Shown here: positions 21,273 to 49,253 of the stretch, in pieces | How the letters are laid out: every line of letters starts with the position of its first letter | Numbering within the stretch: the first letter of the stretch is position 1 | Assembly (NCBI RefSeq): GCF_900090305.1 | Contig: NZ_LT607751.1 | Location: 806,001-870,000, forward strand | Direction: 5' to 3' | Source of the DNA: Micromonospora siamensis | GTDB lineage: Bacteria; Actinomycetota; Actinomycetes; Mycobacteriales; Micromonosporaceae | Length of the DNA stretch: 64,000 nt | Made by a program: the position numbers and the translations under genes | Notes under the pieces: generated by a model | The model's database searches: none | What the model was told of the DNA's origin: nothing | Seen by the model: only the letters and a program-made list of their open reading frames with translations

Positions 21273-22485
21273 GTTGATCATGAAGTTGGCGGCGATGTCG
21301 ATCTGGCGGGGTCAAGGGGTGAGTGCAATCGTTAGGCGGTGATGAGGTGAGCCAGACGCTGGGCTGGGGTGTTCCAGTCCAGCGTCTGTCGGGGGCGGGT
21401 GTTGAGTTCGTGGGCGACCTCGTCCAAGCCGTTCTGGTCGATGGTGCGGAAGTCGTAGCTGCTCTTGGGGAAGTACTGGCGTAGCAGCCCGTTGGTGTTT
21501 TCGTTGGTGCCGCGTTGCCAGGGGCTGTGGGGGTCGCAGAAGTAGACCGGGCAGCCGGTGGCGACGGTGAACACGGGGTGGGTGGCCATTTCCACGCCTT
21601 GGTCCCAGGTCAGCGACCGGCGCAGGTGCGTGGGCATGCGGGTGGCCAGGTTGGTGAGCACACCGATGACGGCTTCGCTGTCGCGGCCGTGGGGTAGGGC
21701 GCCGAGCATCACGTAACGGGTGGCTCGTTCCACCAGGGTCACGATCGCTGAGGCGCCGGCCTTGCCGATGACCAGGTCACCTTCCCAGTGCCCGGGCACC
21801 GCCCGGTCGGTGACCTCCGCGGGCCGGGTGCTGATGTGCAGGTCTGCGATCCAGGGCCGCCGACGGCGAGCGGCGCCCGCGGCACGTGACTGCGGACGCC
21901 GCTGGGTGCGTCCCGACCGTAGCGCTACCTGCCGGGTCAACTCGGCCCTCAGATTGCCTCGCGACTGCACGTAGATCGCCTGGTAGATCGTCTCGTGGGA
22001 CACCTGCAACTCCGGCCGGTCGGCGAACGTGGTCCGCAACCACGCGGCGATCTGCTTCGGAGACCACCTACGGGCCAGTTTCCCCGCCACCACCTGCCGC
22101 AGCCGCGTACCGACCGCCAGCTTCGCCCTCGCCGGCCGCCGCCTGGCCGCGTCAGCCCGCCGCTGCGCCCACTGCGCCTGATAACCCCACCGATACGGGC
22201 GGCGCCCCCGCCCATGCGGCAGTGACCGCCCCAGCGGGTTCTTCGTCCCGTGCCGCGCACTGTTGTTCCGCGCCACCTCCCGCGACACCGTGCACACCGG
22301 CACCCCGAGAACCCCCGCGATCTGCGAGATCGTCCGACCAACCCCCCACAGATGCTCCAACACCTGCCGATGCCCGAACGTCAACACACCCGGCCTCGCC
22401 ACCAGCACCTCCAGCCCAACCAAGATCAGTTGCACTGAAGCCTAGAAACCGCCTCTCCAGAACCGCCGCTAACTTCATGATCAAC
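21273..22485 (-). mobile_element. IS30-family insertion sequence
   Basis: About 1.21 kb carrying one transposase gene. The ends are near-perfect inverted repeats: GTTGATCATGAAGTTGGCGG at 21273-21292 and the reverse complement of 22466-22485, differing at one position, with agreement running about two bases further inward. The pairing may also extend outward by a CC/GG pair (21271-22487), so the boundary is uncertain by 2 bp. No clear target duplication is visible. It sits between the convergent purB and ybjQ-like genes and interrupts neither. Confidence 0.8.
21332..22435 (-). CDS. IS30-family DDE transposase
   Basis: A 367-residue transposase. The N-terminus has a helix-turn-helix (ISQIAGVLGVPVCTVSREV) typical of IS30 DNA binding. 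The catalytic core shows the DDE triad: an Asp in the GDLVIGK segment, an Asp in LTWDQGVEM, and a Glu in the block PWQRGTNENTNGLLRQYFP. GTG is the likely start. The reading frame is intact from end to end, so the copy could still be active; inverted repeats flank it on both sides. Confidence 0.92.
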   Translation of the reverse strand: MQLILVGLEVLVARPGVLTFGHRQVLEHLWGVGRTISQIAGVLGVPVCTVSREVARNNSARHGTKNPLGRSLPHGRGRRPYRWGYQAQWAQRRADAARRRPARAKLAVGTRLRQVVAGKLARRWSPKQIAAWLRTTFADRPELQVSHETIYQAIYVQSRGNLRAELTRQVALRSGRTQRRPQSRAAGAARRRRPWIADLHISTRPAEVTDRAVPGHWEGDLVIGKAGASAIVTLVERATRYVMLGALPHGRDSEAVIGVLTNLATRMPTHLRRSLTWDQGVEMATHPVFTVATGCPVYFCDPHSPWQRGTNENTNGLLRQYFPKSSYDFRTIDQNGLDEVAHELNTRPRQTLDWNTPAQRLAHLITA

Positions 22486-24457: not shown

Positions 24458-27343
24458 ATGACCACCCATCCGGAACAGGCCGTGCGGGAGACCCCGGACG
24501 CCGTCCCGGCGGAGCCGCAGGCGACCGCAGTGGTGCCGCAGGCCGGCCCGGTCGACGCCGGGCGGCGCACCGAAGCGGCCCCGGCCGACGACTGGGCCGC
24601 GGGCGTGGACACCGTGGGGCGCGCCGACGCCACGCCGGAAGAGCTCCAGCCCTACGCCGAGCTGGGCCTCCGCGACGACGAGTACGACCGGATCCGGCAC
24701 ATCCTCGGCCGTCGTCCCACCCAGGCCGAGCTGGCCATGTACTCGATCATGTGGAGCGAGCACTGCTCCTACAAGTCGAGCAAGGTGCACCTGCGCCAGT
24801 TCGGTGAGAAGGCCCCGCCGAGCGACCGGCTGCTCGCCGGCATCGGCGAGAACGCCGGCGTCGTCCAGATCTCCGACGAGCTGGCGGTCACCTTCAAGGT
24901 CGAGTCGCACAACCACCCGAGCTTCGTCGAGCCGTACCAGGGCGCGGCGACCGGTGTCGGCGGCATCGTCCGCGACATCCTCGCCATGGGCGCCCGCCCG
25001 GTGGCGGTCATGGACCCGCTGCGCTTCGGCGCGGCCGACCACCCGGACACCGCCCGGGTGCTGCCCGGGGTGATCGCCGGTGTCGGCGGCTACGGCAACT
25101 GCCTGGGCCTGCCCAACATCGGCGGCGAGGTCGTCTTCGACCCCTGCTACCAGGGCAACCCGCTGGTCAACGCGCTCTGCCTGGGCGTGCTGCCGGTCGA
25201 CCGGCTGCAGAAGAAGGACGCCACCGGCCCCGGCAACGTCGTGGTGCTGATGGGCGCCCGCACCGGCCGGGACGGCATCGGCGGCGTGTCCGTGCTGGCC
25301 AGCGCCACCTTCGACGAGGGCAGCGAGCAGCGCCGCCCGTCGGTGCAGGTGGGCGACCCGTTCATGGAGAAGCTCCTGATCGAGGCATGCCTGGAGCTGT
25401 ACGACGCCGAGCTGGTCGTCGGCATCCAGGACCTCGGCGGCGCCGGGCTGACCTGCGCGCTGACCGAGACCGCCGCGTCGGCGGGCACCGGCATGCGGGT
25501 CTGGCTGGAGCGGGTCCCGCTGCGCGAGGCCTCGATGGAGCCGCACGAGATCCTGGCCAGCGAGTCCCAGGAGCGGATGCTGCTGGTGGTCACCCCGGAG
25601 AAGCTGGAGGCGGTGCTCAAGACCGCCGAGAAGTGGGGCGTCTGGGCCACCGCGATCGGTGAGGTCACCGCGCCGTCCGAGGACGGCCAGCCGGGGCGCC
25701 TCGTGGTCACCTGGCGCGACCAGCTGGTGGTGGACGTGCCGCCGGGCTCCCTGGTCGACGACGGTCCGGTCTACGCGCGCCCGATGCGCGAGCCGGCCGA
25801 CCTGATCCTGCTCCAGGCCGACCGGGCGGAGACGCTGCCCCGGCCGGCCAACCCGGACGCGCTGCGGGAGACCCTGCTGCGCATGATCGCGTCGCCGAAC
25901 CTGGCCGACAAGACCTGGGTCACCGAGCAGTACGACCGGTACGTGCTGGGCAACACCGTGCTGGCGCAGCCGGAGGACTCCGGCGTGATCCGGATCGACG
26001 AGCGGACCGGCCTGGGCGTGGCCCTCTCGGTCGACGGCAACGGCCGGTACGCCCGCCTCGACCCGTACCACGGCACCAAGCTGGCGCTGGCCGAGGCGTA
26101 CCGGAACGTCGCCGTGACCGGCGCGAAGCCGATCGCCGTCACCAACTGCCTGAACTTCGGCTCCCCGGAGGACCCGGGCGTGATGTGGCAGTTCGCCGAG
26201 GCCGTGCGCGGTCTCGCGGACGGCTGCCTGGAGCTGGGCATCCCGGTGACCGGTGGCAACGTCAGCTTCTACAACCAGACCGGTGCGGCGGCGATCCACC
26301 CCACTCCGGTGGTGGGTGTGCTCGGCGTGCTGGACAACGTGGCCGAGCGGGTGCCGATGGGCTTCGTCCCGCGGGCCGCGGGGGACCACGACCAGATCTT
26401 CCTGCTGGGTGAGACGCACGTGGAGCTCTCCGGCTCCGAGTGGGCCTGGGTGACCCACGAGCACCTCGGTGGCGTACCCCCGATGGTGGATCTGGCCCGC
26501 GAGCGGCAGCTGGCCGACCTGCTGGCCGAGGCGGCCCGGGTGGGGCACCTCAGCTCGGCGCACGACCTCTCCGACGGTGGCCTGGCGCAGAGCCTGGTGG
26601 AGTCGTGCCTGCGGCGGGGCGTCGGCGCGCGGGTGGTGGTGCCGGAGCGGTTCGCCGGCGGCACGATGCCGTTCGTCTACCTGTTCAGCGAGTCCTCGTC
26701 CCGGGTGCTGGTCTCGGTGCCGCGTGGCCACGAGAAGGCCTTCACGGCGCTCTGCGCCGAGCGGAACGTGCCGTGGGAGCACATCGGCGTGACCGACCCG
26801 GCCGGCGGCGCCCTCGAGGTGTACGGCCAGTTCCGGGTCGGTCTGGACGAGCTGCACACGGCGCACACCTCGACGCTGCCGCAGCTGTTCGGCGGTGCCG
26901 AGGCGACCCCGCCGGCCGCGGTCGCGCAGCCGGCCGCCGCCGTCGCGGCGCCGGTGGCCTCCGCGGTCGCGGCCGGTACGGCGCCGGAGACGGTCGACGC
27001 GCCGGGAGCGGTGGACGGAGCGGCCACGGTCGACGAGGCCCGCGAATCGGCCGCCCCGGCTGAGGCGGCCGCGCCGGTGACGGTCGACGAACCGGTCGGA
27101 CCGGTCGGGGGCGACGAGCCCGCCGGGTCGCCCGTGGTCGACGGGCCGGTCGCCGCCGGCGAGCAGCCGGAGTCGCCGGCCGTCGAGCCCGTGGCCGAGG
27201 CCGCGGCGGACGGGCCGGACACCGACGAGGCCCCGGCCGGTGAGCCGGGGACGGACGGCACGGTTCCGCCGGCCGAGCGGGACGGCCTGCCGCACGCCAA
27301 CTCCGGCGACGGCACGGAAGCCGGTGCGCCTCAACAGCGCTGA
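24458..27343 (+). CDS. purL: FGAM synthase large subunit PurL, with long C-terminal extension
   Basis: A 961-residue ATP-dependent synthetase of the small PurL type. SHNHPSF marks the ATP/FGAR site, and the two AIRS-like halves with the repeated glycine-rich loops are complete. Normal members are about 740-790 residues. Here the catalytic part ends at about residue 815, and a further about 145 residues rich in Ala, Pro, Val, Asp and Glu follow, with no visible motif. An N-terminal about 50-residue Ala/Pro/Thr extension precedes [20 protein letters not shown] lies just before the ATG. The last 20 bp overlap the next gene, which starts inside the tail coding sequence. Confidence 0.93.
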
Positions 27344-28196: not shown

Positions 28197-30287
28197 TCAG
28201 TCGTCCAGCCAGTCCAGCCGGCGACCGCCCCGCTCCTGCTGCGGCGGCGGCCCGTCGGCCCGGCCGCGACCGGGCTGCCCCTGCTCGTTGTAGTAGCCGC
28301 CGCCCTGCTGCTGGTCGTACGCGGCACCGTCGTAGCCACCGCCGCGCTGCTGCGGGGCCTCGCCGTAGCCACCGGACTGGCCGCCGTAGCCGCCGCGCTG
28401 GTCGTAGCCGCCGCGCTGCTGGTCGTACCCGCCGCCCTGACCGGGGTAGGCGTCGCCGCGCTGGTCGTAGCCGCCGCCGTAGCCGGATCCGGACTGCTGG
28501 CCGCCGTCGTAGCCGCCGTACCCGCCGCCCTGGCCGCCGCTCTGGCCGGCGCCGTAGCCGCCACCCTGCTCACCCGTCCGGCCGTACGACGCCGGCTCCT
28601 GGCCGTAGCCGTGCCCGGGGTCGCCGGTGGGCTGGTAGGTGCTGGTCGGGTACGGGTCCGCCGGCGGCGTGTAGGACTGGGTGCCCTCCCCGGTGTACCG
28701 GCCGGTGGGCTCGTCGAAGCGCTCACCGTAGCCGCCGGCGCCCTGGCCGCCGCCGTAGCCGCCGGCCGGCGCGCCGTACCCGCCACCCGAGGCGGGGGCG
28801 TTGCCGTAGCCTGCCCCGGAGGCGGGAGCGTTGCCGTAACCGGCACCCGAGGCGGGGGCGTTGCCGTAGCCGGCGCCCGAGGCGGGGGCGTTGCCGTAGC
28901 CGCCCTGGGCGCCGTAGCCGCCGCCGGAGGCCGGCGCGTTGCCGTACCCGCCGTCGGGGGCGGCGTTGCCGTAACCGCCGTAGCCGCCCTGGCCGGGTGC
29001 CTCCTCGCCGTACCCGTTGCCGGCCCAGCCGCCGGGCTGACCGGCGGCGCCGCCGGCGCCGAAGGCGGGGGGCGGGGGAGCGCCGTACGGGTCCGGCGGT
29101 ACGTCGTCGACGACGGGACGCTGGAGCATGGTGGGCGCGTCGCTCATCGCGGCGCCGCCGACCATGGTCGGGTCCGGCCCGGCGCCGACCCGGTTCACCA
29201 CCCGGGTCTGGTCGTCGGCCCCCCGGTACGCCCCACGGGCCGCGGGCACCGCGCCGGCCGCCGCCGCGCCGGCGGGACCGTCGACGTCGCCGTCGTCGTC
29301 GGCGTTCTCCTTGCGCTTCATGTAGAGCAGCACGATGGTGCCGACGCCGACCGCCACGAAGAGGCCGCCGAGCAGGATGAGCAGCCAGGACGCCCCGCCG
29401 CTGTCCGCCTCGGCCGAGGCGGCCTCGGGCTGCTGGGTCGGGGCGGCCGCCTCGGCCGGAGCCTCGGTGGCGGTGTCCTCGGTGGGTTCCTCGGTCGGGA
29501 CCGGAGCAGCCGTCGCCGACGCGGAGGCCGAGGCGGAGACGCTGGGCTTGACCTCCACCGGGATCGCCAGGCTGATCCGCTGGCCGGTCAGGCTCTGGCC
29601 GGCGCTCGCGTTGATCGACCGGGTGCCGAGGACGGTTTCCTTGCTCGCCCCCAGCTGGATCTGGCCCGGGACGATCGGCTGCGAGGAGGAGCCGACGAAG
29701 CGGAAGTTGCCGCTGCCGTCGCTGGTGGTCTGGTAGCGGTGCTGGGCGGAGTCGAGCAGCATCACCGTGGCGTTCGGCACGGCGTCGCCGTTGGCGGTGA
29801 CGACCACCTTGCCGGAGATCGACTTGACCGTCTTGACCTGCGTCGGCGTGGGCGACGGCTTGGGCTTGCCGACCAGGGTGACCTGGGTCGACGCCTCCTT
29901 GGTCTGCTTGTCCGGCCCGTTGGAGTCGGTGGCCTTGATGGTGATCGTGGCAGTGCCGTCGGCGGCGTCGTCGGCCAGCTTGAAGGTGGCCTGGAACGTG
30001 CCGTTCTGGTCGACCCGGCCGCGGCTGCAGCCGTCGACGCAGTTGAGCTTGCCCTCGCTGGACGAGACCTGGACGTCGGCGGGGCCGATCGGCTCGGCGA
30101 ACGACAGCGAGTAGCTGACCTTGACGGTGCCGCCCGCCTCGACGGTGCCGGGCGAGGCCGACACGTTGTTGACGTCGGGGGCGGCCAGGGCGGCTGTGGC
30201 GGGGACGGTGAGCAGCGCGCCGGCCACCAGCGCCACGACCACACCGGCCCTAAGCTTCCAGGCACGTCGGTGTGTTGACACGTCCAC
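28197..30287 (-). CDS. Single-pass membrane protein with Ig-like/carboxypeptidase-regulatory ectodomain and Gly/Tyr-rich cytoplasmic tail
   Basis: A 696-residue protein. A signal peptide (about residues 1-36) is followed by an Ig-like domain containing a Cys pair (LNCVDGC), a carboxypeptidase-regulatory-like segment around residues 145-205 ([22 protein letters not shown]), a Ser/Thr/Ala/Pro linker and one membrane helix near residue 310 ([22 protein letters not shown]) ending in KRKE. The cytoplasmic half holds possible phospho-threonine sites ([16 protein letters not shown]) of a kind bound by FHA domains, then about 270 residues of Gly, Tyr, Gln and Pro. Part of this tail is an in-register 10-residue repeat. 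Start is GTG. Substrate or partner is unknown; a cell-envelope sensor or scaffold is one reading. Confidence 0.75.
28787..28902 (-). repeat. 30-bp tandem repeats encoding [10 protein letters not shown] units
   Basis: Four in-register 30-bp units, recognisable by GGCGGGRGCGTTGCCGTA recurring at 28791, 28821, 28851 and 28881, with a degenerate fifth near 28930. They encode the 10-residue unit [11 protein letters not shown] in the cytoplasmic tail of the membrane protein and have only a few base differences. Confidence 0.85.
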
Positions 30288-30870: not shown

Positions 30871-30891
30871 CACTGTCAGTCGACGACAGTG
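30871..30891. promoter_or_regulatory. Inverted repeat upstream of purF
   Basis: CACTGTC at 30871-30877 and GACAGTG at 30885-30891 flank the self-complementary centre AGTCGAC. It overlaps a TACACT hexamer (30869-30874) that could be a -10 element, about 90 bp before purF. It could be an operator or a leader hairpin; no regulator is identified. Confidence 0.35.
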
Positions 30892-30963
30892 GTCCCGGCC
30901 GACCGTGTGGTGCGCCCCCGGCACTCCCGCCAGGCCAGTCCAGACCAGCATGAGGGAGCGGCA

Positions 30964-32505
30964 GTGCCCCGAGGCGATGGCCGGCTGAGCCACGACCTTG
31001 ATCCCGAGCGACCCGGCCCCCAGGACGCGTGTGGCGTCTTCGGCGTCTGGGCCCCGGGTGAGGAGGTCGCCAACCTCACCTACTTCGGGCTCTACGCCCT
31101 CCAGCACCGTGGCCAGGAGGCGGCCGGCATCGCGGTGAGCGACGGATCGGGCGTGGTGGTCTACAAGGACCTCGGCCTGGTCGCCCAGGTATTCGACGAG
31201 CCCACCCTGGCCAGCCTGCGCGGCCACGTCGCGATCGGGCACGCGCGCTACTCCACCACCGGCGGCTCCACCTGGGAGAACGCCCAGCCGACCATCCGTT
31301 CGACCAGCTCCGGCACCACGATCGCGCTGGCGCACAACGGCAACCTGGTCAACACCGCCGAGCTGCAGAAGGAGGTCGCCGAGCGGGGCCTGGTCGCCGA
31401 CATGGCGACCAACGACACCTCGCTGGTGACCATGCTGCTGGCCGGCCGGCCCGACCTCTCCGTCGAGGCCGCCGCGCTGGAGGTGCTGCCGACGCTGCGC
31501 GGGGCGTTCAGCTTCGTCTTCATGGACGAGTCGACCCTCTACGCGGCCCGCGACCCGCACGGCGTGCGTCCGCTGGTGCTCGGCCGGCTGGAGCGCGGCT
31601 GGGTGGTGGCGAGCGAGACCGCCGCGCTGGACATCGTCGGCGCCAGCGTGGTCCGCGAGGTCGAGCCGGGCGAGCTGATCGCGATCGACGCCGACGGACT
31701 CCGGTCCGCCCGGTTCGCCGCGCCGGAGCCCAAGGGCTGCCTCTTCGAGTACGTCTACATCGCCCGCCCGGACGCGACCATCGCCGGGCGCAACGTGCAC
31801 GCGGCGCGGGTGCAGATCGGCCGGCAGCTGGCCAAGGAGCACCCGGTCGAGGCCGACCTGGTGATCCCGGTGCCCGAGTCGGGCACGCCGGCCGCGATCG
31901 GTTACGCGGAGGCGTCCGGCATCACCTACGGCGCCGGCCTGATGAAGAACCCGTACGTCGGCCGTACCTTCATCCAGCCCTCGCAGACCCTGCGCCAGCT
32001 CGGCATCCGGCTCAAGCTGAACCCGCTGCGGGAGAACGTCCGGGGCAAGCGGCTGGTGGTGGTCGACGACTCGATCGTGCGCGGCAACACCCAGCGGGCG
32101 ATCGTGCGGATGCTGCGCGAGGCCGGCGCGCTGGAGGTGCACGTCCGCATCTCCTCCCCGCCGGTCAACTGGCCGTGCTTCTACGGCATCGACTTCGCCA
32201 CCCGGGCCGAGCTGCTGGCCAACGGGCTGGACAACGAAGGCATCCGGCGCTCCATCGGCGCCGACACGCTGGGCTACGTATCGCTTCCCGGTCTCATCGC
32301 GGCGACCGAGCAGCCGAAGACCCGGCTCTGCCGGGCGTGCTTCGATGGGGAGTACCCCATCGAGCTGCCCGCGGGGAACCTGATCGGCAAGCACGTCCTC
32401 GAAGGTGTGGGACGCCGGGTCACCAGCCCGGTGCCGGAGGCTCCGGAGCACACCGACCCCGCGCTCGTCGCCACTCCGGGCGGCGCGACCGTACACCGCC
32501 CGTAG
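30964..32505 (+). CDS. purF: Amidophosphoribosyltransferase
   Basis: A 513-residue enzyme that makes phosphoribosylamine from PRPP and glutamine, the committed step of purine synthesis. The mature N-terminal nucleophile is Cys23 in DACGVFGVW, so a 22-residue propeptide must be removed, as in other Gram-positive PurF proteins. The PRPP loop is VVVDDSIVRGNT. Cysteines later in the protein (for example CRACFDG near the C-terminus) fit the iron-sulfur cluster of this class. The GTG start follows GAGGGAG; a longer frame would lengthen the propeptide without a ribosome site. purM follows after 60 bp. Confidence 0.95.
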   Translation: MPRGDGRLSHDLDPERPGPQDACGVFGVWAPGEEVANLTYFGLYALQHRGQEAAGIAVSDGSGVVVYKDLGLVAQVFDEPTLASLRGHVAIGHARYSTTGGSTWENAQPTIRSTSSGTTIALAHNGNLVNTAELQKEVAERGLVADMATNDTSLVTMLLAGRPDLSVEAAALEVLPTLRGAFSFVFMDESTLYAARDPHGVRPLVLGRLERGWVVASETAALDIVGASVVREVEPGELIAIDADGLRSARFAAPEPKGCLFEYVYIARPDATIAGRNVHAARVQIGRQLAKEHPVEADLVIPVPESGTPAAIGYAEASGITYGAGLMKNPYVGRTFIQPSQTLRQLGIRLKLNPLRENVRGKRLVVVDDSIVRGNTQRAIVRMLREAGALEVHVRISSPPVNWPCFYGIDFATRAELLANGLDNEGIRRSIGADTLGYVSLPGLIAATEQPKTRLCRACFDGEYPIELPAGNLIGKHVLEGVGRRVTSPVPEAPEHTDPALVATPGGATVHRP

Positions 32506-32565: not shown

Positions 32566-33720
32566 GTGACGCACGTGTCCGAGCGCAGCGGCGCAGGAAG
32601 CAGCCCGACCGGAGCCGGTGGCGACCGCCAGCCGTGGACGGCCGGCAGCGGCCGCGCCGGGCGCAAACGCTCGGTCTCGTACGCCGACGCCGGGGTGTCG
32701 ATCGACGCGGGCGACCGCGCCGTCGAGCTGCTGAAGTCCAAGGTCAAGTCGACCCGGCGGCCCGAGGTCATGGGCGACCTGGGCGGCTTCGCCGGCCTGT
32801 TCCGGCTGGACACCCAGAAATACAAGAACCCGATCCTGGCCTCCTCGACCGACGGCGTGGGCACCAAGCTGGTGATCGCCCAGCAGATGGACATCCACGA
32901 CACGGTCGGCATCGACCTGGTCGCGATGGTCGTCGACGACCTGGTGGCCTGCGGCGCCGAGCCGCTGTTCCTGCTCGACTACATCGCCACCGGCGAGGTC
33001 GTGCCAGACAAGGTCGCCGAGATCGGCGCCGGCATCGCCGACGGCTGCCGGTACGCCGGCTGCGCGCTGCTGGGCGGCGAGACCGCCGAGCACCCCGGCG
33101 TGCTCCGCCCGGACGAGTACGACATCTCCGCCACCGGTGTCGGTGTGGTCGAGGAGAGCGAGATCCTCAGCTCGGAGCGGGTCGAGGTGGGTGACGTGGT
33201 GATCGCCATGCGCTCCTCGGGCCTGCACTCCAACGGCTACTCCCTGGTCCGGCACGTGCTGCTCGGCGCCGGCCGGATGCGGCTGGACGTGGTGATCGAC
33301 GACTTCGGCCGGCAGCGCACGCTCGGCGAGGAGCTGCTCACCCCGACCAAGATCTACGCCCAGGACTGCCTCAAGCTGATCGCCGAGGCGGAGGTGCGCG
33401 CCCTGGCCCACGTCACCGGTGGCGGCATCCCGGGCAACCTGGTCCGGATCCTGCCGGAGCACGTCGACGCGGTGGTCAACCGCTCCACCTGGAAGCCCCA
33501 GCCGGTCTTCGACCTGGTCCAGTCCAAGGGCCGGATCGAGGACCCGGAGATGGAGGCGACCTTCAACATGGGTGTCGGCATGTTCGCCATCGTCTCGGCG
33601 GAGGACGCCGACCGGGCGCTGGCGACCCTGACCGGCCGTGGCGTGGACGCCTGGCAGGCCGGCGAGATCATCGAGGGTTCCGGCAACGTGCAGATGGTCG
33701 GCCAGCACACCCGGGGCTGA
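32566..33720 (+). CDS. purM: Phosphoribosylaminoimidazole (AIR) synthetase
   Basis: A 384-residue ATP-dependent cyclase that converts FGAM to AIR. Key blocks are SYADAGVSIDAGDRAV, ASSTDGVGTKLVIA, VDDLVACGAEPLFLLDY and GGETAEHPG. The first about 35 residues (Ser/Gly/Arg-rich) precede the family start. GTG start with an AAAGGGGAG ribosome site eight bases upstream. It completes a purF-purM operon. Confidence 0.95.
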   Translation: MTHVSERSGAGSSPTGAGGDRQPWTAGSGRAGRKRSVSYADAGVSIDAGDRAVELLKSKVKSTRRPEVMGDLGGFAGLFRLDTQKYKNPILASSTDGVGTKLVIAQQMDIHDTVGIDLVAMVVDDLVACGAEPLFLLDYIATGEVVPDKVAEIGAGIADGCRYAGCALLGGETAEHPGVLRPDEYDISATGVGVVEESEILSSERVEVGDVVIAMRSSGLHSNGYSLVRHVLLGAGRMRLDVVIDDFGRQRTLGEELLTPTKIYAQDCLKLIAEAEVRALAHVTGGGIPGNLVRILPEHVDAVVNRSTWKPQPVFDLVQSKGRIEDPEMEATFNMGVGMFAIVSAEDADRALATLTGRGVDAWQAGEIIEGSGNVQMVGQHTRG

Positions 33721-33742
33721 TGATCACTCTCGGGTGATCATC
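33719..33742 (+). terminator. Hairpin at the end of purM
   Basis: GATGATCAC at 33719-33727 pairs perfectly with GTGATCATC at 33734-33742 around TCTCGG, starting at the purM stop. A second possible stem (AGCCTGA with TCAGGCT) lies at 33786-33809 just before amcB, so the 103-bp gap may act as terminator and leader. Confidence 0.45.
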
Positions 33743-33823
33743 CGAGCACCTGATCAGGTCTTCACCCGAGTGGCCATCGCCGCCTAGCCTGAAGGTTCGC
33801 TCTCAGGCTGGGAAGGAGGGTCG

Positions 33824-34930
33824 ATGGCTGCTCGGGCGGGCATGCGCGGCATTGCCGCCGTGCCGTCGTACGTGGTGATGCAGCCGACGACCCTCTGCAA
33901 CCTGGACTGCGCCTACTGCTACCTGCCGCTGCGCGGCGAGGACCGGCGGATGCCGGTGGCCGTGGCCGAGGCGGTGGCCCGCGCGGTGAACCCGTGGGCG
34001 ACCGCCGGCCGGTTCTCGGTGGTCTGGCACGGCGGGGAGCCGCTGGCCGCCGGCCGGGACCACCTCGCCGCGCTGATGGCGCCGTTCGGCCCCGACGTCG
34101 AGCATCACGTGCAGACCAACGCCACGCTGCTCGACGACGCGTGGTGCGGGTTCCTCGCCGAGCACCGGGTGCGGGTGAGCGTGAGCGTGGACGGGCCCCG
34201 GGAGCGCAACGGCGACCGGGTCACCCGGGGCGGCCGGCCCGCGTACGACCGGATCGTGCGCGGCGTCGAGGCGTTGCGCCGGCACGGGCTGCCCTTCTCC
34301 GCGCTGGCCGTGGTGAGCCACCCCGGTCCGGGCCTCGCCGCGGAGCTGTACGACTACTTCCTCGACCTGGGCTGCGACGTCCTCGGCATCAACATCGAGG
34401 AGACCGAGGGGGTCAACACCCGGGGGAACGCGCACGACGCGGCGGCGGTGACGGCGTTCTGGGCGGAACTGGTGGCGGCCTGGCGGCGGGACCCGCGGAT
34501 CCACCTGCGGGAGGTGGAGTGGTCCCTGCGGTACGCGGCGGCGATCCTGGACGGCGCGGCCGACGACCTGCTGCCCCGCCGGCTGGACCCGATCCCGACG
34601 GTGGGTCAGGACGGCTCGGTCACCGTGCTCTCTCCGGAGCTGGCCGGCTTCACCGACCCCCGGTACGGCGACTTCAGCAGCGGCAACGTGCTGGTGACGC
34701 CGCTGGGGGAGATCCTGGCCGGTGCGGAGGGCACGCCCTGGGTGGGTGAGTTCCTCACCGGGGTGGAGGCGTGCCGGGCGTCCTGCCCGTACTTCGGCTT
34801 CTGTGGCGGCGGCCACGCGGCCAACCGTTACTTCGAGCTGGGGCGTTTCGACGGTACGGAGACCGCACACTGCCGCAACAGCAAGATCCACCTATTGGAG
34901 GGAGTGTTGCAGCATGCCCGAGACCACTAG
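33824..34930 (+). CDS. amcB: Radical SAM/SPASM cyclophane-forming peptide maturase, AmcB type
   Basis: A 368-residue radical SAM enzyme predicted to install cyclophane crosslinks in the precursor encoded next to it. The SAM cluster motif CNLDCAYC supplies Cys25, Cys29 and Cys32. WHGGEPL is the glycine-rich SAM-binding segment. Cys317, Cys321, Cys327 and Cys350 in the C-terminal part fit a SPASM domain with auxiliary clusters. The assignment rests on the enzyme type together with the overlapping precursor, whose last 20 residues are full of aromatic and Asn residues as in AmcA peptides. The ATG has GGGAAGGAGGG upstream. The last 17 bp overlap the precursor gene. No exporter or protease gene is adjacent. 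Confidence 0.8.
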   Translation: MAARAGMRGIAAVPSYVVMQPTTLCNLDCAYCYLPLRGEDRRMPVAVAEAVARAVNPWATAGRFSVVWHGGEPLAAGRDHLAALMAPFGPDVEHHVQTNATLLDDAWCGFLAEHRVRVSVSVDGPRERNGDRVTRGGRPAYDRIVRGVEALRRHGLPFSALAVVSHPGPGLAAELYDYFLDLGCDVLGINIEETEGVNTRGNAHDAAAVTAFWAELVAAWRRDPRIHLREVEWSLRYAAAILDGAADDLLPRRLDPIPTVGQDGSVTVLSPELAGFTDPRYGDFSSGNVLVTPLGEILAGAEGTPWVGEFLTGVEACRASCPYFGFCGGGHAANRYFELGRFDGTETAHCRNSKIHLLEGVLQHARDH

Positions 34931-35150
34931 TCACCGGCAGCCTGAGCGGGTCGGGGAGGTCGACGGGGATCCGGTCGCCGACCGGGTCCGTGCGGCCGCC
35001 AGCGGCCTGACCGCACTCCTGCACGAGGCTGAGGCGGCCCGCCGGTCGCGGGCGGAGGTGGCGGGCGGCGACGGGGCCAGCGCGGTCTGCGCCTGGAACC
35101 ACTTCGAGAACATCCCGACGTTCTACAACTGGAACAACCGGCCCCGCTGA
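34914..35150 (+). CDS. amcA: Cyclophane RiPP precursor peptide, AmcA type
   Basis: A 78-residue precursor peptide. Residues 1 to about 57 form a charged leader with a helical stretch (VADRVRAAASGLTALLHEAE). The C-terminal core region, residues 59-78, reads CAWNHFENIPTFYNWNNRPR: Trp61-Asn-His, Phe64-Glu-Asn, Phe70-Tyr-Asn and Trp73-Asn-Asn fit the aromatic-X-X pattern joined by radical SAM maturases into three-residue cyclophanes. The ATG overlaps the end of amcB and has GGAGGGAG about 10 bases upstream. The single Cys59 is next to the probable core. Which residues are actually crosslinked and where the leader is cut are inference. Confidence 0.78.
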   Translation: MPETTSHRQPERVGEVDGDPVADRVRAAASGLTALLHEAEAARRSRAEVAGGDGASAVCAWNHFENIPTFYNWNNRPR

Positions 35151-35264
35151 ACGCGGCACACCCTGCGGATCAAGGGACCTGACGGGGGTCGCCGGGCAGC
35201 ACCGCCCGCTCCGACAGGCCCTTGATCGCCGGTTGGTACGCCGACCTTCCAGTGGACACATGGG

Positions 35265-35292
35265 TGAGCACGCGGGAGTTACCGCGTGCTCA
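35265..35292. terminator. Hairpin between amcA and DUF3073 gene
   Basis: Perfect 11-bp stem (TGAGCACGCGG at 35265-35275 with CCGCGTGCTCA at 35282-35292) around GAGTTA, between convergent stops at 35150 and 35307. Confidence 0.75.
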
Positions 35293-35306
35293 GCTGTGTC
35301 CTTGGA

Positions 35307-35525
35307 TCAGCGGGTCGGACGGGCCCAGGGATCCGGGTCGTCGTCCGCGTCGTGGTCCTCGTCATCGTCGTCGACATACTCTTTGTAGTCGTCGTCGAAG
35401 TCGTGGTCCGACTTACCAGCACCCGCCAGTTCGCGCTGCAAGGCGGTGAGGTCGGTGTTCGGGGAGTGGTACTTCAACTCCCGGGCCACCTTCGTCTGCT
35501 TGGCCTTAGCACGGCCGCGCCCCAT
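35307..35525 (-). CDS. DUF3073 family protein
   Basis: A 72-residue actinobacterial protein: a basic N-terminus MGRGRAKAKQTKVARELKY, then SPNTDLTALQREL, and a very acidic Asp-rich tail (DDDYKEYVDDDDEDHD). This basic-head, acidic-tail layout and its position between purM and vdh match the DUF3073 gene of Streptomyces. The ATG at 35525 gives the conserved start; an upstream in-frame start adds residues not found in the family. Function is unknown. Confidence 0.9.
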   Translation of the reverse strand: MGRGRAKAKQTKVARELKYHSPNTDLTALQRELAGAGKSDHDFDDDYKEYVDDDDEDHDADDDPDPWARPTR

Positions 35526-35784
35526 GGCTCGACCCCCTCGCACAGAATTCGGGGCAGCCCGAAGGCGGGCCCCGATGACGTCAGGCATCTCTCGTGGCTC
35601 TTACGGTACATGGGGATGCCACCGTTCGGCACCTCGGGTTACCGCTGGCCGGCTCCGCGCGTCGCAGTCACCCGACCGTGACCCAGTGTACCGGGTAAGG
35701 AGCGCGTGCTGAGCTGCCCGTGACACCGGTCAGAAGGCCACGAATCATCCCCAAGGCACCTTAGCTTCCAGCCGTCCCGGGGCT
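35526..35784. other. Intergenic region upstream of the DUF3073 gene
   Basis: With the adjoining terminator this gap is 305 bp. It should contain the leftward DUF3073 promoter, for which a TACACT hexamer on the minus strand (35685-35690) is a weak candidate. No gene is seen. Confidence 0.3.
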
Positions 35785-35830: not shown

Positions 35831-36913
35831 TCACGACAGGCGGATCGTCCGCAGCCGGCCGATGTCGGCCATCCGCCGCTCGGCGAGCCGGTCCGCGGCC
35901 GCCGCCGGCGGGACGCCCTCGGTGTCGGCGAGGCGCAGGATCTCCCGCGTGGTGTCGAAGATCTTCGTGGCGCGCAGCTTGGCCCGGTCGAAGTTGAAGC
36001 CCTCGATCTCGTCGGCCACCTGGATCACCCCGCCCGCGTTCACCACGTAGTCGGGCGCGTACAGGATGCCCCGGTCGGCGAGGACCTTCTCGATACCGGC
36101 GTGGGCGAGCTGGTTGTTCGCGGCGCCGGCGACCACCTTGGCCCGCAGCGCCGGCACGGTGTCGTCGTTCAGGGCGCCGCCCAGCGCGCACGGGGCGTAC
36201 ACGTCGATGTCGGCGGCGACCAGGGCCGAGGCGTCGTCGACCAGGGTGACCTGCGGGTAGGTCTGCCTGGCCCACTCCAACGCCCGGGGGCTGACGTCGG
36301 TGGCCACCACCTCGGCGCCGTCCTCGACGAGGTGCGTGGTGAGGTACTTGCCGACCTTGCCCAGGCCGGCGACGCCGACCCGCCTGCCGGCGAGGGAGGG
36401 CGCGCCCCAGACGTGCTCCGCGGCGGCCCGCATGCCCTGGAAGACGCCCCAGGCGGTGAGGATCGAGGAGTCGCCGGCCCCGCCGTGCTCCACGCTGCGG
36501 CCGGTGACGTAGCGCGTCTCGCGCGCGATCACGTCCATGTCGGCGACGTAGGTGCCGACGTCGCAGGCGGTGTAGTAACGGCCGCCGAGGGACTCCACGA
36601 AGCGGCCGTACGCGCGCAGCAGCGCCTCGCTCTTGAGCTGGTCCGGGTCACCCCAGATGACCGCCTTGCCGCCACCGAGGTCCAGGCCGGCCAGGGCGTT
36701 CTTGTACGCCATGCCGCGGGAGAGGTCCAGCACGTCGGCCAGGGCGGCCTCCTCGCTGGCGTACGGGTAGAACCGGGTGCCGCCGAGCGCGGGGCCCAGC
36801 GCGGTCGAGTAGATCCCGATGATCGCCTTGAGGCCGGACTGCTTGTCCTGGCAGAACACGACCTGTTCGTGACCGGTCGATCCCGGGTCGTCGGTGCTGG
36901 CGAATACGCCCAT
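35831..36913 (-). CDS. vdh: Valine/leucine (branched-chain amino acid) dehydrogenase
   Basis: A 360-residue Glu/Leu/Phe/Val dehydrogenase that oxidatively deaminates branched-chain amino acids with NAD, feeding precursors for branched fatty acids and polyketides. Visible elements are GGTRFYPY, the catalytic Lys in [23 protein letters not shown], and the Rossmann loop [20 protein letters not shown] and [15 protein letters not shown] follow as usual. ATG at 36913 with AGGAG; a longer frame adds a non-conserved leader. Divergent from the next hypothetical gene; conserved neighbour of bldC. Confidence 0.9.
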
Positions 36914-37090
36914 GGCTGACTCCTGTGACGGCGGGCGCCCTTGTGGGTGCGCGAACCTGATGGACACCGGCGGGGATGCTGCCGGTGGTGCAGAGCCTAA
37001 TATCGGCCGACGCCGTACTGTCGTCCGCGTCACGCGCGATCCCGACGTGCGGACGGGGGGTGGCTCCAGGATTCGTGGGAGGATCGCGCC

Positions 37091-38181: not shown

Positions 38182-38391
38182 ATGGCATCGCGAACGCACG
38201 AACCAGAGCCGCTACTCACGCCGGCCGAGGTGGCGTCGATGTTCCGTGTCGACCCGAAGACGGTGACCCGGTGGGCCAAGGCTGGCAAGCTCAGCGCCAT
38301 CCGGACGTTGGGTGGTCACCGCCGCTACCGCGAGTCCGAGGTTCGGGCCCTGCTGCAGGGGCAGATCCCGCAGCAGCGGCAGGGCGACTGA
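38182..38391 (+). CDS. bldC: Developmental regulator BldC (MerR-like DNA-binding protein)
   Basis: A 69-residue protein with only the winged helix of the MerR family and no effector domain, as in BldC, which binds DNA cooperatively as head-to-tail oligomers and holds back sporulation genes in Streptomyces. LLTPAEVASMFRVDPKTVTR forms the helix-turn-helix, and GGHRRYRESEVRALL the wing and second helix. AGGAG is eight bases before the ATG. Confidence 0.97.
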   Translation: MASRTHEPEPLLTPAEVASMFRVDPKTVTRWAKAGKLSAIRTLGGHRRYRESEVRALLQGQIPQQRQGD

Positions 38392-41844: not shown

Positions 41845-43176
41845 TCAGTGCCGGATCGGCACTCCGGCGTCGGCCAGCGCGCCGATCACCCCGGCCGACT
41901 CGGCGAAGCCGATCAGCAGCACGGCGTCCGCCCGGAAGCTCTTGATCTCGGCGGCGCCGGCGGTGAAGTCGACCGTCTTTCCCTTGGCCGGCGGCTCGTA
42001 GGTCATCAGCTTCACCTGGTCGGCGCCGATACCGGCCCGCTCCAGCTCGGCGCGGACGCTCTCCTGGAGGCCCTCACCGTAGGAGTCCTTCCGGGCCACC
42101 AGGACGATCTTGTGCGGACCGTCGCGCAGGATCACGTCGGCCAGGGCGCGGCCCTGGAGGCTGTCCGGCGGGGCGGTACGGAAGTAGAGGCCCTTGTCGT
42201 CCACCGTGGTCAGGCCGGCGTCGGTGTTGGACGGTGAGAAGAGCACCCGACCGGCGGCCACCACCTGCGGCAGCACCGCCCGGGAGACGCCGGACGCGCC
42301 GGCGCCGATGATGACCTGTACGCCCGCCGCGACGTGCTTGCGGACGGTGGCCCCGGCGACGTCCGGGTTGGTGCCGTCGTCGCCCGGGATCCAGGTCACC
42401 GGCTTGCCGAGCACCCCGCCGGCGGCGTTGACGTCCCGCAGCGCGAGGGCGGCGCCGGCGGCCAGCGGAGGATTGGCCAGCGCCAGGTCACCGGTCTGCG
42501 GCAGCAGCCCGCCCAGGATCAGCGGGCCGCCCTTGCCGGCGCTCGGCTTCTTCGGCTTCGGCGGCGCCTTCGTGCTGGCAGCGGACTCGTCGCCCGCGCC
42601 AACGAACTCGGTCTTGCCGTCGTTGATCTTCTGGCCGTCGAAGTGCAGGGTGGCGTAGCTGGCCGTGGCCGGCTCCCCGGCGTCGGTGAACCCGGCCCGG
42701 GTCAGCGACACGCTCCGGTACTCGATGTCCCGGCCCTCCCGGGCCAACCGCAGGCAGAGCGCCACCGTCTCGCAGCGCTGCCCGTTGTTGGTGACCCCGA
42801 CGATCTGCCGGGCGATCGCCCGAGGGTCGGTGCTCCCGGCGAGCTGGGCGGCGAGCGAGCTGATCGCCACCGCGTCGTACGCCTCGGCCGAGTAGAGGAA
42901 GTCGGTCAGGTCCGGGTCGACGGACAGTAGCCGCTTCTTGAAGTCGTCGGGCAACGGCGTGAGCGGGGTGGTGCCCTTCATGCCGTCGACCAGATCGGCC
43001 CGCTCCTTCAACTCCGCGGGGAAGGAGTTGAGCATGTTGCCGTCGGTGCCGTAGAGGCGCACCTGGGTGGCCCCGGGCGCCTCTTCGGGCTTGTCGTTCC
43101 CGCACGCGCTGGTGGCAAGCAGGAGCGTCGCGCAGGCCACCAGGGCCTTGGCGCGCGAACCGCGTGAAACGAGCAT
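41845..43176 (-). CDS. Substrate-binding lipoprotein (type I periplasmic-binding fold) with halves in permuted order
   Basis: A 443-residue lipoprotein; the lipobox ATSAC places the lipidated Cys at residue 25. It belongs to the branched-chain amino-acid/amide binding family, but its halves are reversed. Residues about 38-195 (VRLYGTDGN, KGTTPL, FKKRLLSVDPDLTDF, AYDAVAISSLAA, VTNNGQRC, LAREGRDIEYRSVS) correspond to the usual C-terminal half. A Lys/Pro/Ser linker (about 196-215) follows. Residues about 217-443 (LLPQTGDLA, AAGGVLGKPV, GVSRAV, LYFRTAPPDSLQGRALADVIL) correspond to the usual N-terminal half, stopping exactly where the LYxxDGN strand would continue. No permease or ATPase gene is adjacent, so it may be an orphan binding protein or sensor. 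Confidence 0.8.
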   Translation of the reverse strand: MLVSRGSRAKALVACATLLLATSACGNDKPEEAPGATQVRLYGTDGNMLNSFPAELKERADLVDGMKGTTPLTPLPDDFKKRLLSVDPDLTDFLYSAEAYDAVAISSLAAQLAGSTDPRAIARQIVGVTNNGQRCETVALCLRLAREGRDIEYRSVSLTRAGFTDAGEPATASYATLHFDGQKINDGKTEFVGAGDESAASTKAPPKPKKPSAGKGGPLILGGLLPQTGDLALANPPLAAGAALALRDVNAAGGVLGKPVTWIPGDDGTNPDVAGATVRKHVAAGVQVIIGAGASGVSRAVLPQVVAAGRVLFSPSNTDAGLTTVDDKGLYFRTAPPDSLQGRALADVILRDGPHKIVLVARKDSYGEGLQESVRAELERAGIGADQVKLMTYEPPAKGKTVDFTAGAAEIKSFRADAVLLIGFAESAGVIGALADAGVPIRH

Positions 43177-47907: not shown

Positions 47908-49041
47908 CTAGCTCCGCATCGTGATGTGCCGGGGCAACCGTGCGACATCCCCATGCGCGGCGAGTTCCGACAGCGCCTTTGCGATCTCGCGGTCACGCCC
48001 GTCAACGGCGTGCAGGTACCGGCGAGCGGCAGCCATAGACGAGTGCCCGAGTCGCTTCATCAGGTCAGCCAGGGTCGCACCAGTCTGCGCGGCGAGGGTC
48101 TGCCCGGTGTGCCGTAGGTCGTGGAAGGTCAGGCCATCAAGGCCCACTTGCTTCCGCGCCCGGACGAACGCCTGGTACAACGTGTTGCCGCGCAGCGGTG
48201 ATCCGTCACGGCTCACGAACAGCCGGTCAGAGCCGGCGTACTCGTCCAAGTGCAGCCGGACCAGCGGCACGACGTGAGGCGGGATGGCGATGGTCCGCTT
48301 ACCCGCATCCGACTTGGGATCCTTGTCGAACGCTCGGCCAGGAGCGTGCAGGGGTTCAACCCGAGCTTTCCGAACGGTGATCGTGTGCTCGGTCAGATCT
48401 ACGTCGGAGACGCGCAGGCCGGCGATTTCACCGCGCCGGAGGCCGCACCAGGCGGCGATGAGAACAGCGGTGCGGTAGCGAGGGTTGATGGCATCGACCA
48501 GGGCGACGACCTGAGCGGGGGTGGCGACTGGCCGTTCACTGGCGCGGACAGTGCCGGCGCCGGGGATCTGGCACGGGCTACGGGCGATGATGCCCTCACG
48601 CACGGCGGTGTTCATGACCATGCGCAGGAAGCGGTACGACTGAGAGATAGAGGTGCGGCCACCGTTGCCACGCAGGGCGGCAGCATGCCACTCCCGAACC
48701 CGACTCGCCGTGAGGTCACGAAGCGGCACGTCGACCAGCGGCACCAAGTGCAGACGCAGGTTCCGTTCGCACGTCTCCCGCCACCGAATGCCGATCTTCG
48801 GGCTGTCCCGCAGGATGGCCCGCGCGTAGTTGCCAAACGTTTCCGATGCCGCACGGTCGTCCAACCAACTACCACGCGAGATGTCTGCCTCCACCAGCGT
48901 CAACCAGCGGTTGGCATCAGTCTTCGTCTTGAAGGTCTGCGGCGCGTTCTGCCGAGCACCACCATTAGGCGGCACGAACGAGGCATGGAAGCGACCCGAG
49001 GGGAGCTTACGGACGTACCCGAACTGACGACGCTTGCCCAT
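47908..49041 (-). CDS. int: Tyrosine recombinase (AICE integrase)
   Basis: A 377-residue phage-type integrase that would recombine attP with the tRNA-Phe attB. It has an N-terminal arm-binding region (GYVRKLPSGRFHASFVPP), a SAM-like core-binding domain, and the catalytic residues Arg in GLRRGEIAG, His-x-x-Arg in HDLRHTGQ, His in LGHSSM and Tyr in RRYLHAVD. The ATG overlaps the xis stop by one base (TGATG). It lies 59 bp from attL, the normal position for an AICE integrase. Confidence 0.95.
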   Translation of the reverse strand: MGKRRQFGYVRKLPSGRFHASFVPPNGGARQNAPQTFKTKTDANRWLTLVEADISRGSWLDDRAASETFGNYARAILRDSPKIGIRWRETCERNLRLHLVPLVDVPLRDLTASRVREWHAAALRGNGGRTSISQSYRFLRMVMNTAVREGIIARSPCQIPGAGTVRASERPVATPAQVVALVDAINPRYRTAVLIAAWCGLRRGEIAGLRVSDVDLTEHTITVRKARVEPLHAPGRAFDKDPKSDAGKRTIAIPPHVVPLVRLHLDEYAGSDRLFVSRDGSPLRGNTLYQAFVRARKQVGLDGLTFHDLRHTGQTLAAQTGATLADLMKRLGHSSMAAARRYLHAVDGRDREIAKALSELAAHGDVARLPRHITMRS

Positions 49042-49253
49042 CAGGCCACCGCCCTTCCATCCGACCATGCAACGGTGACCGGCTCCACCGTGCCGGCGGC
49101 GATGAACTCAGAGAGGGCAACCTCCGGGATGCGGACGTGGTGGCCGCCGAGCTTGACGTAGCGGATGCGCCGCTCAGCGATGAGCCGGCGGGGGAATCGC
49201 TCGGTGGTGCCAAGGCGAGCCGCGGCTTCCTTAACCGTCAGCAGCTTTTCCAC
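49041..49253 (-). CDS. xis: Excisionase (MerR-like helix-turn-helix)
   Basis: A 70-residue DNA-binding protein: LLTVKEAAARLGTTERFPRR forms a winged helix start typical of AICE/phage Xis, followed by YVKLGGHHVRIPEVALSEFI. It is expected to bend DNA at the attachment sites to favour excision. GTG start at 49253 lies within the end of the rep gene (16-bp overlap), and its stop overlaps the int start, matching the rep-xis-int operon of pSAM2. Confidence 0.88.
   Translation of the reverse strand: MEKLLTVKEAAARLGTTERFPRRLIAERRIRYVKLGGHHVRIPEVALSEFIAAGTVEPVTVAWSDGRAVA

Follow-up and report, generated by a model that had tools for sequence, protein, structure and literature searches.

The question raised by this locus is whether a radical SAM enzyme and the short peptide encoded beside it in Micromonospora siamensis make a changeable antibiotic or a product with an everyday job in the cell. 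We analyzed a 64,000-nt stretch of the genome (the window, to which all positions refer), in which a preliminary description had noted the two genes and had proposed a minimal AmcA/AmcB-type cassette for a multiply cyclophane-crosslinked peptide. The pair and the parts of the peptide are as follows.

33824-34930, + strand: amcB, encoding a cyclophane-forming radical SAM peptide maturase of 368 aa (NF041718, PF04055, Cys conservation).
34914-35150, + strand: amcA, encoding a precursor peptide of 78 aa, with its ATG start within the 3' end of amcB (NF041722).
35004-35057, + strand: conserved leader motif of AmcA, G31-E48 (GLTALLHEAEAARRSRAE; 93-locus alignment).
35082-35147, + strand: invariant core of AmcA, A57-R78 (AVCAWNHFENIPTFYNWNNRPR), with predicted rings F64-N66, F70-N72, and W73-N75 and a doubtful one, W61-H63.

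On re-reading, the coordinates of both genes and their overlap (17 nt) proved exact, AmcA has the 78 residues claimed for it, and the four aromatic-X-X units ascribed to its end (WNH, FEN, FYN, and WNN) all lie within its last 20 residues, CAWNHFENIPTFYNWNNRPR. The sequence GAGGGAGTG precedes the amcA start in 49 of 53 loci; in two of the four loci without it (L081 and L084), the amcA start was placed elsewhere by our script. The two genes are probably translationally coupled.

The proposed AmcB/AmcA type was borne out by the HMM search that the preliminary description had suggested, in which both proteins passed curated equivalog cut-offs. AmcB scored 516.4 bits against NF041718 (cut-off, 425; E = 3.6e-155; model positions 1 to 361 of 362), and AmcA scored 120.3 bits against NF041722, the AmcA_3a model (cut-off, 65; E = 3.7e-35), compared with 41 bits, below the cut-off of 65, against AmcA type 3b (NF041723). 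Given these E values and the 1,048 protein homologues of AmcA found at an E value of ≤1e-3, the match is not due to chance. Family membership is thus clear from the model scores, and NCBI names the AmcA homologues multiple cyclophane-containing RiPP AmcA. The pair resembles the AmcB/AmcA 3a systems of NCBIfam in scores and in gene overlap, with no difference at the family level; the two-gene cassette type has already been described and named by NCBI, and amcBA is a further member of it. The founding paper of the family is reportedly that of Phan and Morinaka in 2022. The alternative that the enzyme is a sulfatase maturase failed (98.7 bits against a cut-off of 349.45; TIGR03942). The next-best family was that of the GrrM/OscB triceptide maturases (TIGR04261), where AmcB stayed below the cut-off (230 of 310 bits), and DynA (109 of 450 bits) and FxsB (TIGR04269; 88.5 of 370 bits) were likewise rejected as identities. 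The single-contig, 6.25-Mb genome of M. siamensis encodes one AmcB over the cut-off. In AmcB sequence, Micromonospora mirobrigensis DSM 44830 is the closest relative with a name (98%), in a comparison from which the window's own record may be missing. Outside the window, an 821-aa open frame of the same genome scores 543 bits for a radical SAM maturase domain of the FxsB type (G000:C1:2385098-2386168).

The cluster motif of AmcB, CNLDCAYC (C25, C29, and C32), has the CxxxCxxC arrangement of radical SAM enzymes, and these three cysteines, together with C108, C317, C321, C327, and C350, are each conserved in all 93 aligned orthologues. The SPASM pattern consists of seven cysteines. The C-terminal part of AmcB has only four invariant cysteines (C317, C321, C327, and C350), which would fit one auxiliary cluster, and PF04055 was the sole Pfam match, with no match to a SPASM domain. 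By sequence, the best solved relative is the anaerobic sulfatase-maturating enzyme 4k37 (E = 2.1e-15), over residues 18 to 181 only. The matches listed in the PDB sequence search included two anSME sequences and ChlB; 28 others listed (TAL-effector type), in which no stretch passes alone, look like low-complexity noise. A single-sequence structure model of AmcB was set aside (mean pLDDT, 47.9). Within the leader of AmcA, L32, L35, E38, A39, A42, R43, R46, and E48 are at least 97% invariant in the 93-locus alignment; the motif G31-E48 is the presumed recognition helix, and AmcB would bind the leader in helical form.

The surroundings of the pair are as follows.

30889-32505: purF-type amidotransferase gene, upstream neighbour (Pfam).
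32566-33720, + strand: purM, conserved upstream neighbour, context and not cassette (PF00586/PF02769, synteny).
33749-33758, no strand: palindrome CCTGATCAGG, directly upstream of the -35-like hexamer.
33761-33790, + strand: promoter-like element, TTCACC (33761-33766), an 18-nt spacer, and TAGCCT (33785-33790).
35307-35588, - strand: DUF3073 gene, convergent with the pair and conserved downstream of it, context (PF11273, synteny).
35831-37033, - strand: ELFV-type dehydrogenase gene, beyond the DUF3073 gene (Pfam).

The order purM-amcB-amcA, followed by the DUF3073 and ELFV dehydrogenase genes on the opposite strand, was found by tblastn with six window proteins in 53 of 53 core-locus stretches; two of these are the window's own, a few genomes are repeated, and purF lies outside the shorter stretches. 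Thirty of the 53 had been picked with the AmcA model, ignoring purM. The same order, purF included, held in 80 of 80 named loci, which were chosen as the best AmcB matches and so give no measure of absence. AmcB over the cut-off was present in all 160 Micromonospora genomes, as was AmcA_3a; these counts record presence in the genome, and not every copy was placed at purM. By comparison, FxsB passed its cut-off in 64 of 101 Micromonospora genomes. AmcB was over the cut-off in 258 of 300 Micromonosporaceae genomes, accessory copies counted, and in 16 of 150 genomes at the order level, all Micromonosporaceae; AmcA_3a was found in 3 of 394 genomes at the class level, all Micromonospora, and AmcB in 1 of 198 at the phylum level, the window's own. 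The pair is thus better described as a component fixed in the core genome, in the larger part of the Micromonosporaceae, than as a free-standing cluster. In one Micromonospora genome (G105), amcB/amcA matches occur twice on C1, at ~209 kb and ~359 kb, with equal scores and ~150 kb apart, which may reflect either a duplication or an assembly artifact.

Among 30 genomes from 25 other genera of the family, chosen for lacking the exact core and searched by purM, AmcB lay beside purM in 13 and was absent from the 1.5 kb after purM in 15, so the wider family manages without a cassette there; the two remaining stretches (L217 and L224) reach only ~0.4 kb past purM and are not informative. Past purM, one cassette-less genome of genus g16 has different genes, which by eye look transketolase-like. 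A PurF+PurM tree of 53 loci, which we rooted ourselves and which is given without printed support values, places the cassette-less genera at the base and in one inner clade (g16, g17, g19, and g42); one gain and one loss fit this distribution. Across 4,278 pairs, AmcB identity and PurM identity have a correlation of 0.88.

Several other features of the region were seen. A purL-type synthase gene (AIRS domains, FGAR-AT linker) at 24458-27343 (+) means that purL, purF, and purM are grouped upstream of the cassette. A 696-aa frame at 28197-30287 (-) combines a carboxypeptidase regulatory-like domain with a long, repetitive C-terminal half rich in Gly, Tyr, and Gln. A 69-aa HTH_17/MerR-type protein, which we take to resemble BldC, is encoded at 38182-38391 (+), a few kilobases from the cassette. 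A nine-base inverted repeat, noticed by eye, lies in the gap that separates amcA from the convergent DUF3073 gene (GATCAAGGG/CCCTTGATC, 35168-35176 and 35219-35227). A transposase-type (rve) gene (21332-22435, -) and a phage-integrase-family gene (47908-49068, -) flank the cassette at 11 to 13 kb, although the cassette itself is immobile in the relatives examined.

The pair also has a promoter-like element of its own, conserved between loci. Of 114 distinct purM-amcB intergenic sequences, 88 contain the pattern TTCACC-N17-19-TAnnnT (mean of 0.0 in mononucleotide shuffles) and 105 contain CCTAGCCT (shuffle mean, 0.2); since the sequences are related, these counts are not independent. The palindrome, in the form CCTGATC[AG]GG, is present in 59 of 114 (shuffle mean, 0.1), and our guess is that it is possibly an operator. 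Eleven of the 114 sequences, each from an Actinoplanes-type genus, contain a terminator-like hairpin with a T-run between purM and amcB. An Rfam search of 33500-35400 gave no match. In our reading, amcBA would be a separately transcribed two-gene unit.

The most striking property of the pair is the constancy of the peptide's end. Of 142 distinct amcA 3' ends, 139 encode the same 22-residue core, in 99 nucleotide versions; the three deviating cores read ENVPT, carry an extra P ahead of the last R, or have an added Q. Entry into this set required FEN and F-aromatic-N, so strongly different cores could not enter and are treated separately below. The 17-residue core CAWNHFENIPTFYNWNN, searched as a degenerate DNA pattern, matched 228 of 300 family genomes in 19 of 44 genera, including all 106 Micromonospora genomes of the sample, and the reversed control pattern matched none. 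The best 120 of the 1,048 AmcA homologues, the window's included, share the same 22-residue end behind 120 different leaders, a selection biased toward close relatives. In the 93 aligned loci, 91 have the exact core, AmcA outside the core shows 0.38 differences per site, the identity of the leader falls to a minimum of 36%, and synonymous sites still vary. Over its 22 residues the core has a mean of 0.043 pairwise differences, versus minima of 0.064 among 333 22-residue windows of PurM and 1.016 among 325 windows of AmcB. PurM itself contains a stretch of 28 columns that hardly vary, so the core is comparable to the best-conserved portion of an essential enzyme and does not go beyond it. We do not posit an extra constraint at the nucleotide level. 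The codon entropy of the core, summed over its 20 columns other than Trp, is 10.0 bits, versus 8.4 and 12.0 bits expected by amino acid from PurM and AmcB columns, respectively. Codons for two Ala and one Pro fall under the averages and the last three codons above them; overall, codon choice varies about as in invariant PurM columns and somewhat less than in AmcB columns. Near-absolute purifying selection on the 22 residues is, in our reading, the best explanation, and selection on the substrate specificity of AmcB itself could contribute to the invariance. Text searches with three core strings gave no literature match, and there was nothing relevant among the papers listed by a literature search on AmcB, AmcA, and cyclophanes. 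The invariance, the fixed position at purM, and the conserved promoter-like element are observations of this analysis.

A second form of the cassette provides a comparison. An accessory AmcB group (>540 bits) is present in at least 31 of 160 Micromonospora genomes, with weaker accessory copies outside this count. In the 30 stretches read (L003 to L032), the accessory AmcB is 39 to 43% identical to that of the window and has no purM beside it. It shares with the window an AmcB-family enzyme over the cut-off and a nearby precursor, found in 29 of 30 loci (L008 gave none) and ending like KFDNRPTWDNKGKFDSRPGWDNWNKKK, with the pattern FDNRP.W.N...FDSRP.WDNWNK. It differs in its variable tails: there are 17 different 28-residue core tails in the 29 precursors, a few of which differ partly by an added or missing end residue. 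The AmcB enzyme family alone thus does not freeze its substrates. A frame ending DPPLLTxVWRRxFEQ lies upstream of many accessory cassettes.

It is in light of this contrast that we consider a secreted antibacterial or interbacterial peptide, of the darobactin or dynobactin kind, whose sequence was conserved by happenstance. AmcB belongs to the same broad enzyme superfamily, and the DarW and DynA models match it at 96 and 109 bits, although both scores are far below the cut-offs. Against this, no transporter or immunity gene was recognised among the Pfam-scanned neighbours, AmcB and AmcA_3a occur in every one of the 160 genomes of the genus, and the core is unchanged in 19 genera, unlike that of the accessory cassette. 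We consider such a peptide quite unlikely. The near-identity of the part predicted to be stapled, across the many related genera examined, suggests instead an everyday cell job rather than that of a changeable antibiotic.

Loci that lack the window's core were read separately. Ten purM loci encode an AmcB that is 65 to 71% identical to the window's and, where readable, a different kind of core: WRPFEDAFPTFYQFTNRPR in genus g21, AWRPFEDAFPTFYQFTNRPPR in g3, PRPFEDAFPTFYQFSNRPQR in g9 (similar in g39), WRAFEDSFPTFYEFTNRPR in g27, WRAFSDAFPTFWEFSNRPR in g38, WRPFEDAFPTFYQFTNKPR in g5, and the odd WTDVFTTQFTEFSNRPR in g23. Four of the five second-type precursors scanned passed the AmcA_3b cut-off, and that of g23 failed it (21.5 of 65). 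AmcA type 3b occupies the same purM locus in deeper genera with the same three-motif layout, and its WRPFEDAFPTFYQFTNRPR-like core is unlike that of the window. Three further cases stand apart. In g30 the window's core has FFN replacing FYN (AmcB, 77%); in g33 (L202; AmcB, 65%) the same locus keeps half the core, with only TYYNWNN (CESTGTYYNWNNRSR), so that two rings would be possible; and the g43 stretch ends before the core. The PurF+PurM tree places g33, whose core looks half like that of the window, among second-type genera.

These loci bear on the idea that the core is invariant only through AmcB accepting nothing else, the product itself being under no selection for a function. In its favor, AmcB and the core have remained paired, and coevolution of enzyme and substrate could slow change. 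However, in sister genera the cores beside AmcB orthologues with 65 to 71% identity are plainly of other kinds, positions that belong to no ring motif (A57, V58, C59, I67, P68, T69, and R76 to R78) are nearly as fixed as those that do, and a useless pair would often be lost, yet none of the 160 genomes of the genus lacks it. This explanation is therefore very unlikely in our estimation.

The second core type also informs the number of rings. In a by-eye alignment, both types have the units F-E/S-N/D, F-Y/W-N/Q/E, and W/F-X-N in common, and the WNH position reads WRP, WRA, or PRP in the second type, with no steady counterpart, so WNH is probably not a ring site. Four rings as the default were rejected for this reason: the four aromatic-X-X units are present as described, and as ring sites only F-E-N, F-Y-N, and W-N-N are supported. 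A report on related maturases (PMC11002830) describes three-residue rings formed by OscB, in which Trp C7 is bonded to the C-beta of Asn or Asp, and Phe C4 to that of Asn; in motifs of this kind, XncB and OscB both link a Trp or Phe with an Asn. Carbon-carbon cyclophane chemistry is very likely in the AmcA core, and we predict that AmcB forms three such three-residue rings, F64-E-N66, F70-Y-N72, and W73-N-N75.

How the product would be released is a separate matter. As the preliminary description had stated, neither a protease nor a transporter was recognised beside the pair: a Pfam scan of 20 window ORFs (~21 to 49 kb) named no protease and assigned no family to six of them, AmcA included, and the sole transport-related match was a periplasmic-binding protein ~7 kb away (41845-43176, -). 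If the leader is released, a protease encoded elsewhere would be responsible. All 16 of the cassette-bearing genomes tested carry TldD/E-type genes, as do 8 of 15 without the cassette; since they occur in the latter too and the distribution is confounded by kinship, this decides nothing on processing, and TldD/E was rejected as the missing protease but remains a lead. A different explanation is that AmcA stays uncleaved and that the entire cross-linked protein of 70 to 93 aa is functional, with helix and ringed tail jointly binding a partner. The lack of a recognised adjacent protease and the eight near-invariant residues kept in the leader helix speak for this, but leaders are commonly removed in RiPPs, and this one varies widely in length and sequence while the core is fixed; we judge an uncleaved protein unlikely. 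A further proposal, that AmcA is the precursor of a small redox cofactor and that the finished molecule retains only a few of the ring residues, draws on PqqA and MftA, whose systems likewise combine radical SAM maturases with conserved residues in the core. Yet no further tailoring enzyme was recognised beside the pair and all 22 residues are fixed, not just a few, so that this is the most improbable of the explanations considered.

We thus favor, with a probability of roughly 60%, the reading that amcBA makes a fixed, family-specific triceptide that works in or on the producer with a conserved partner and is not a diversifying antibiotic. Near-absolute purifying selection on the core is the link in this argument: under it, the product most likely acts in or on the producing cell with one conserved partner. 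The product would be a rigid peptide of ~22 residues or fewer, perhaps structural or signalling in role. At about even odds we would go further and call it a housekeeping triceptide, that is, a multi-ring ribosomal peptide kept near letter for letter across at least 19 genera of one family and serving the physiology of the producer like a hormone, a cofactor, or a permanent protein partner; the purM-linked pair would have arisen once and given two main core types early, the window's type being frozen since.

According to a 2025 paper (PMC12257519), the bioactivities of triceptides are not yet elucidated. As the cassette type has already been named by NCBI, the interest of the locus lies in its evolutionary pattern. 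Because one enzyme family occurs in both forms within one genus, genome mining should separate fixed from accessory RiPPs. Present in every sampled genome of an antibiotic-producing genus, in one place and with a frozen core, the cassette offers a clean genetic handle.
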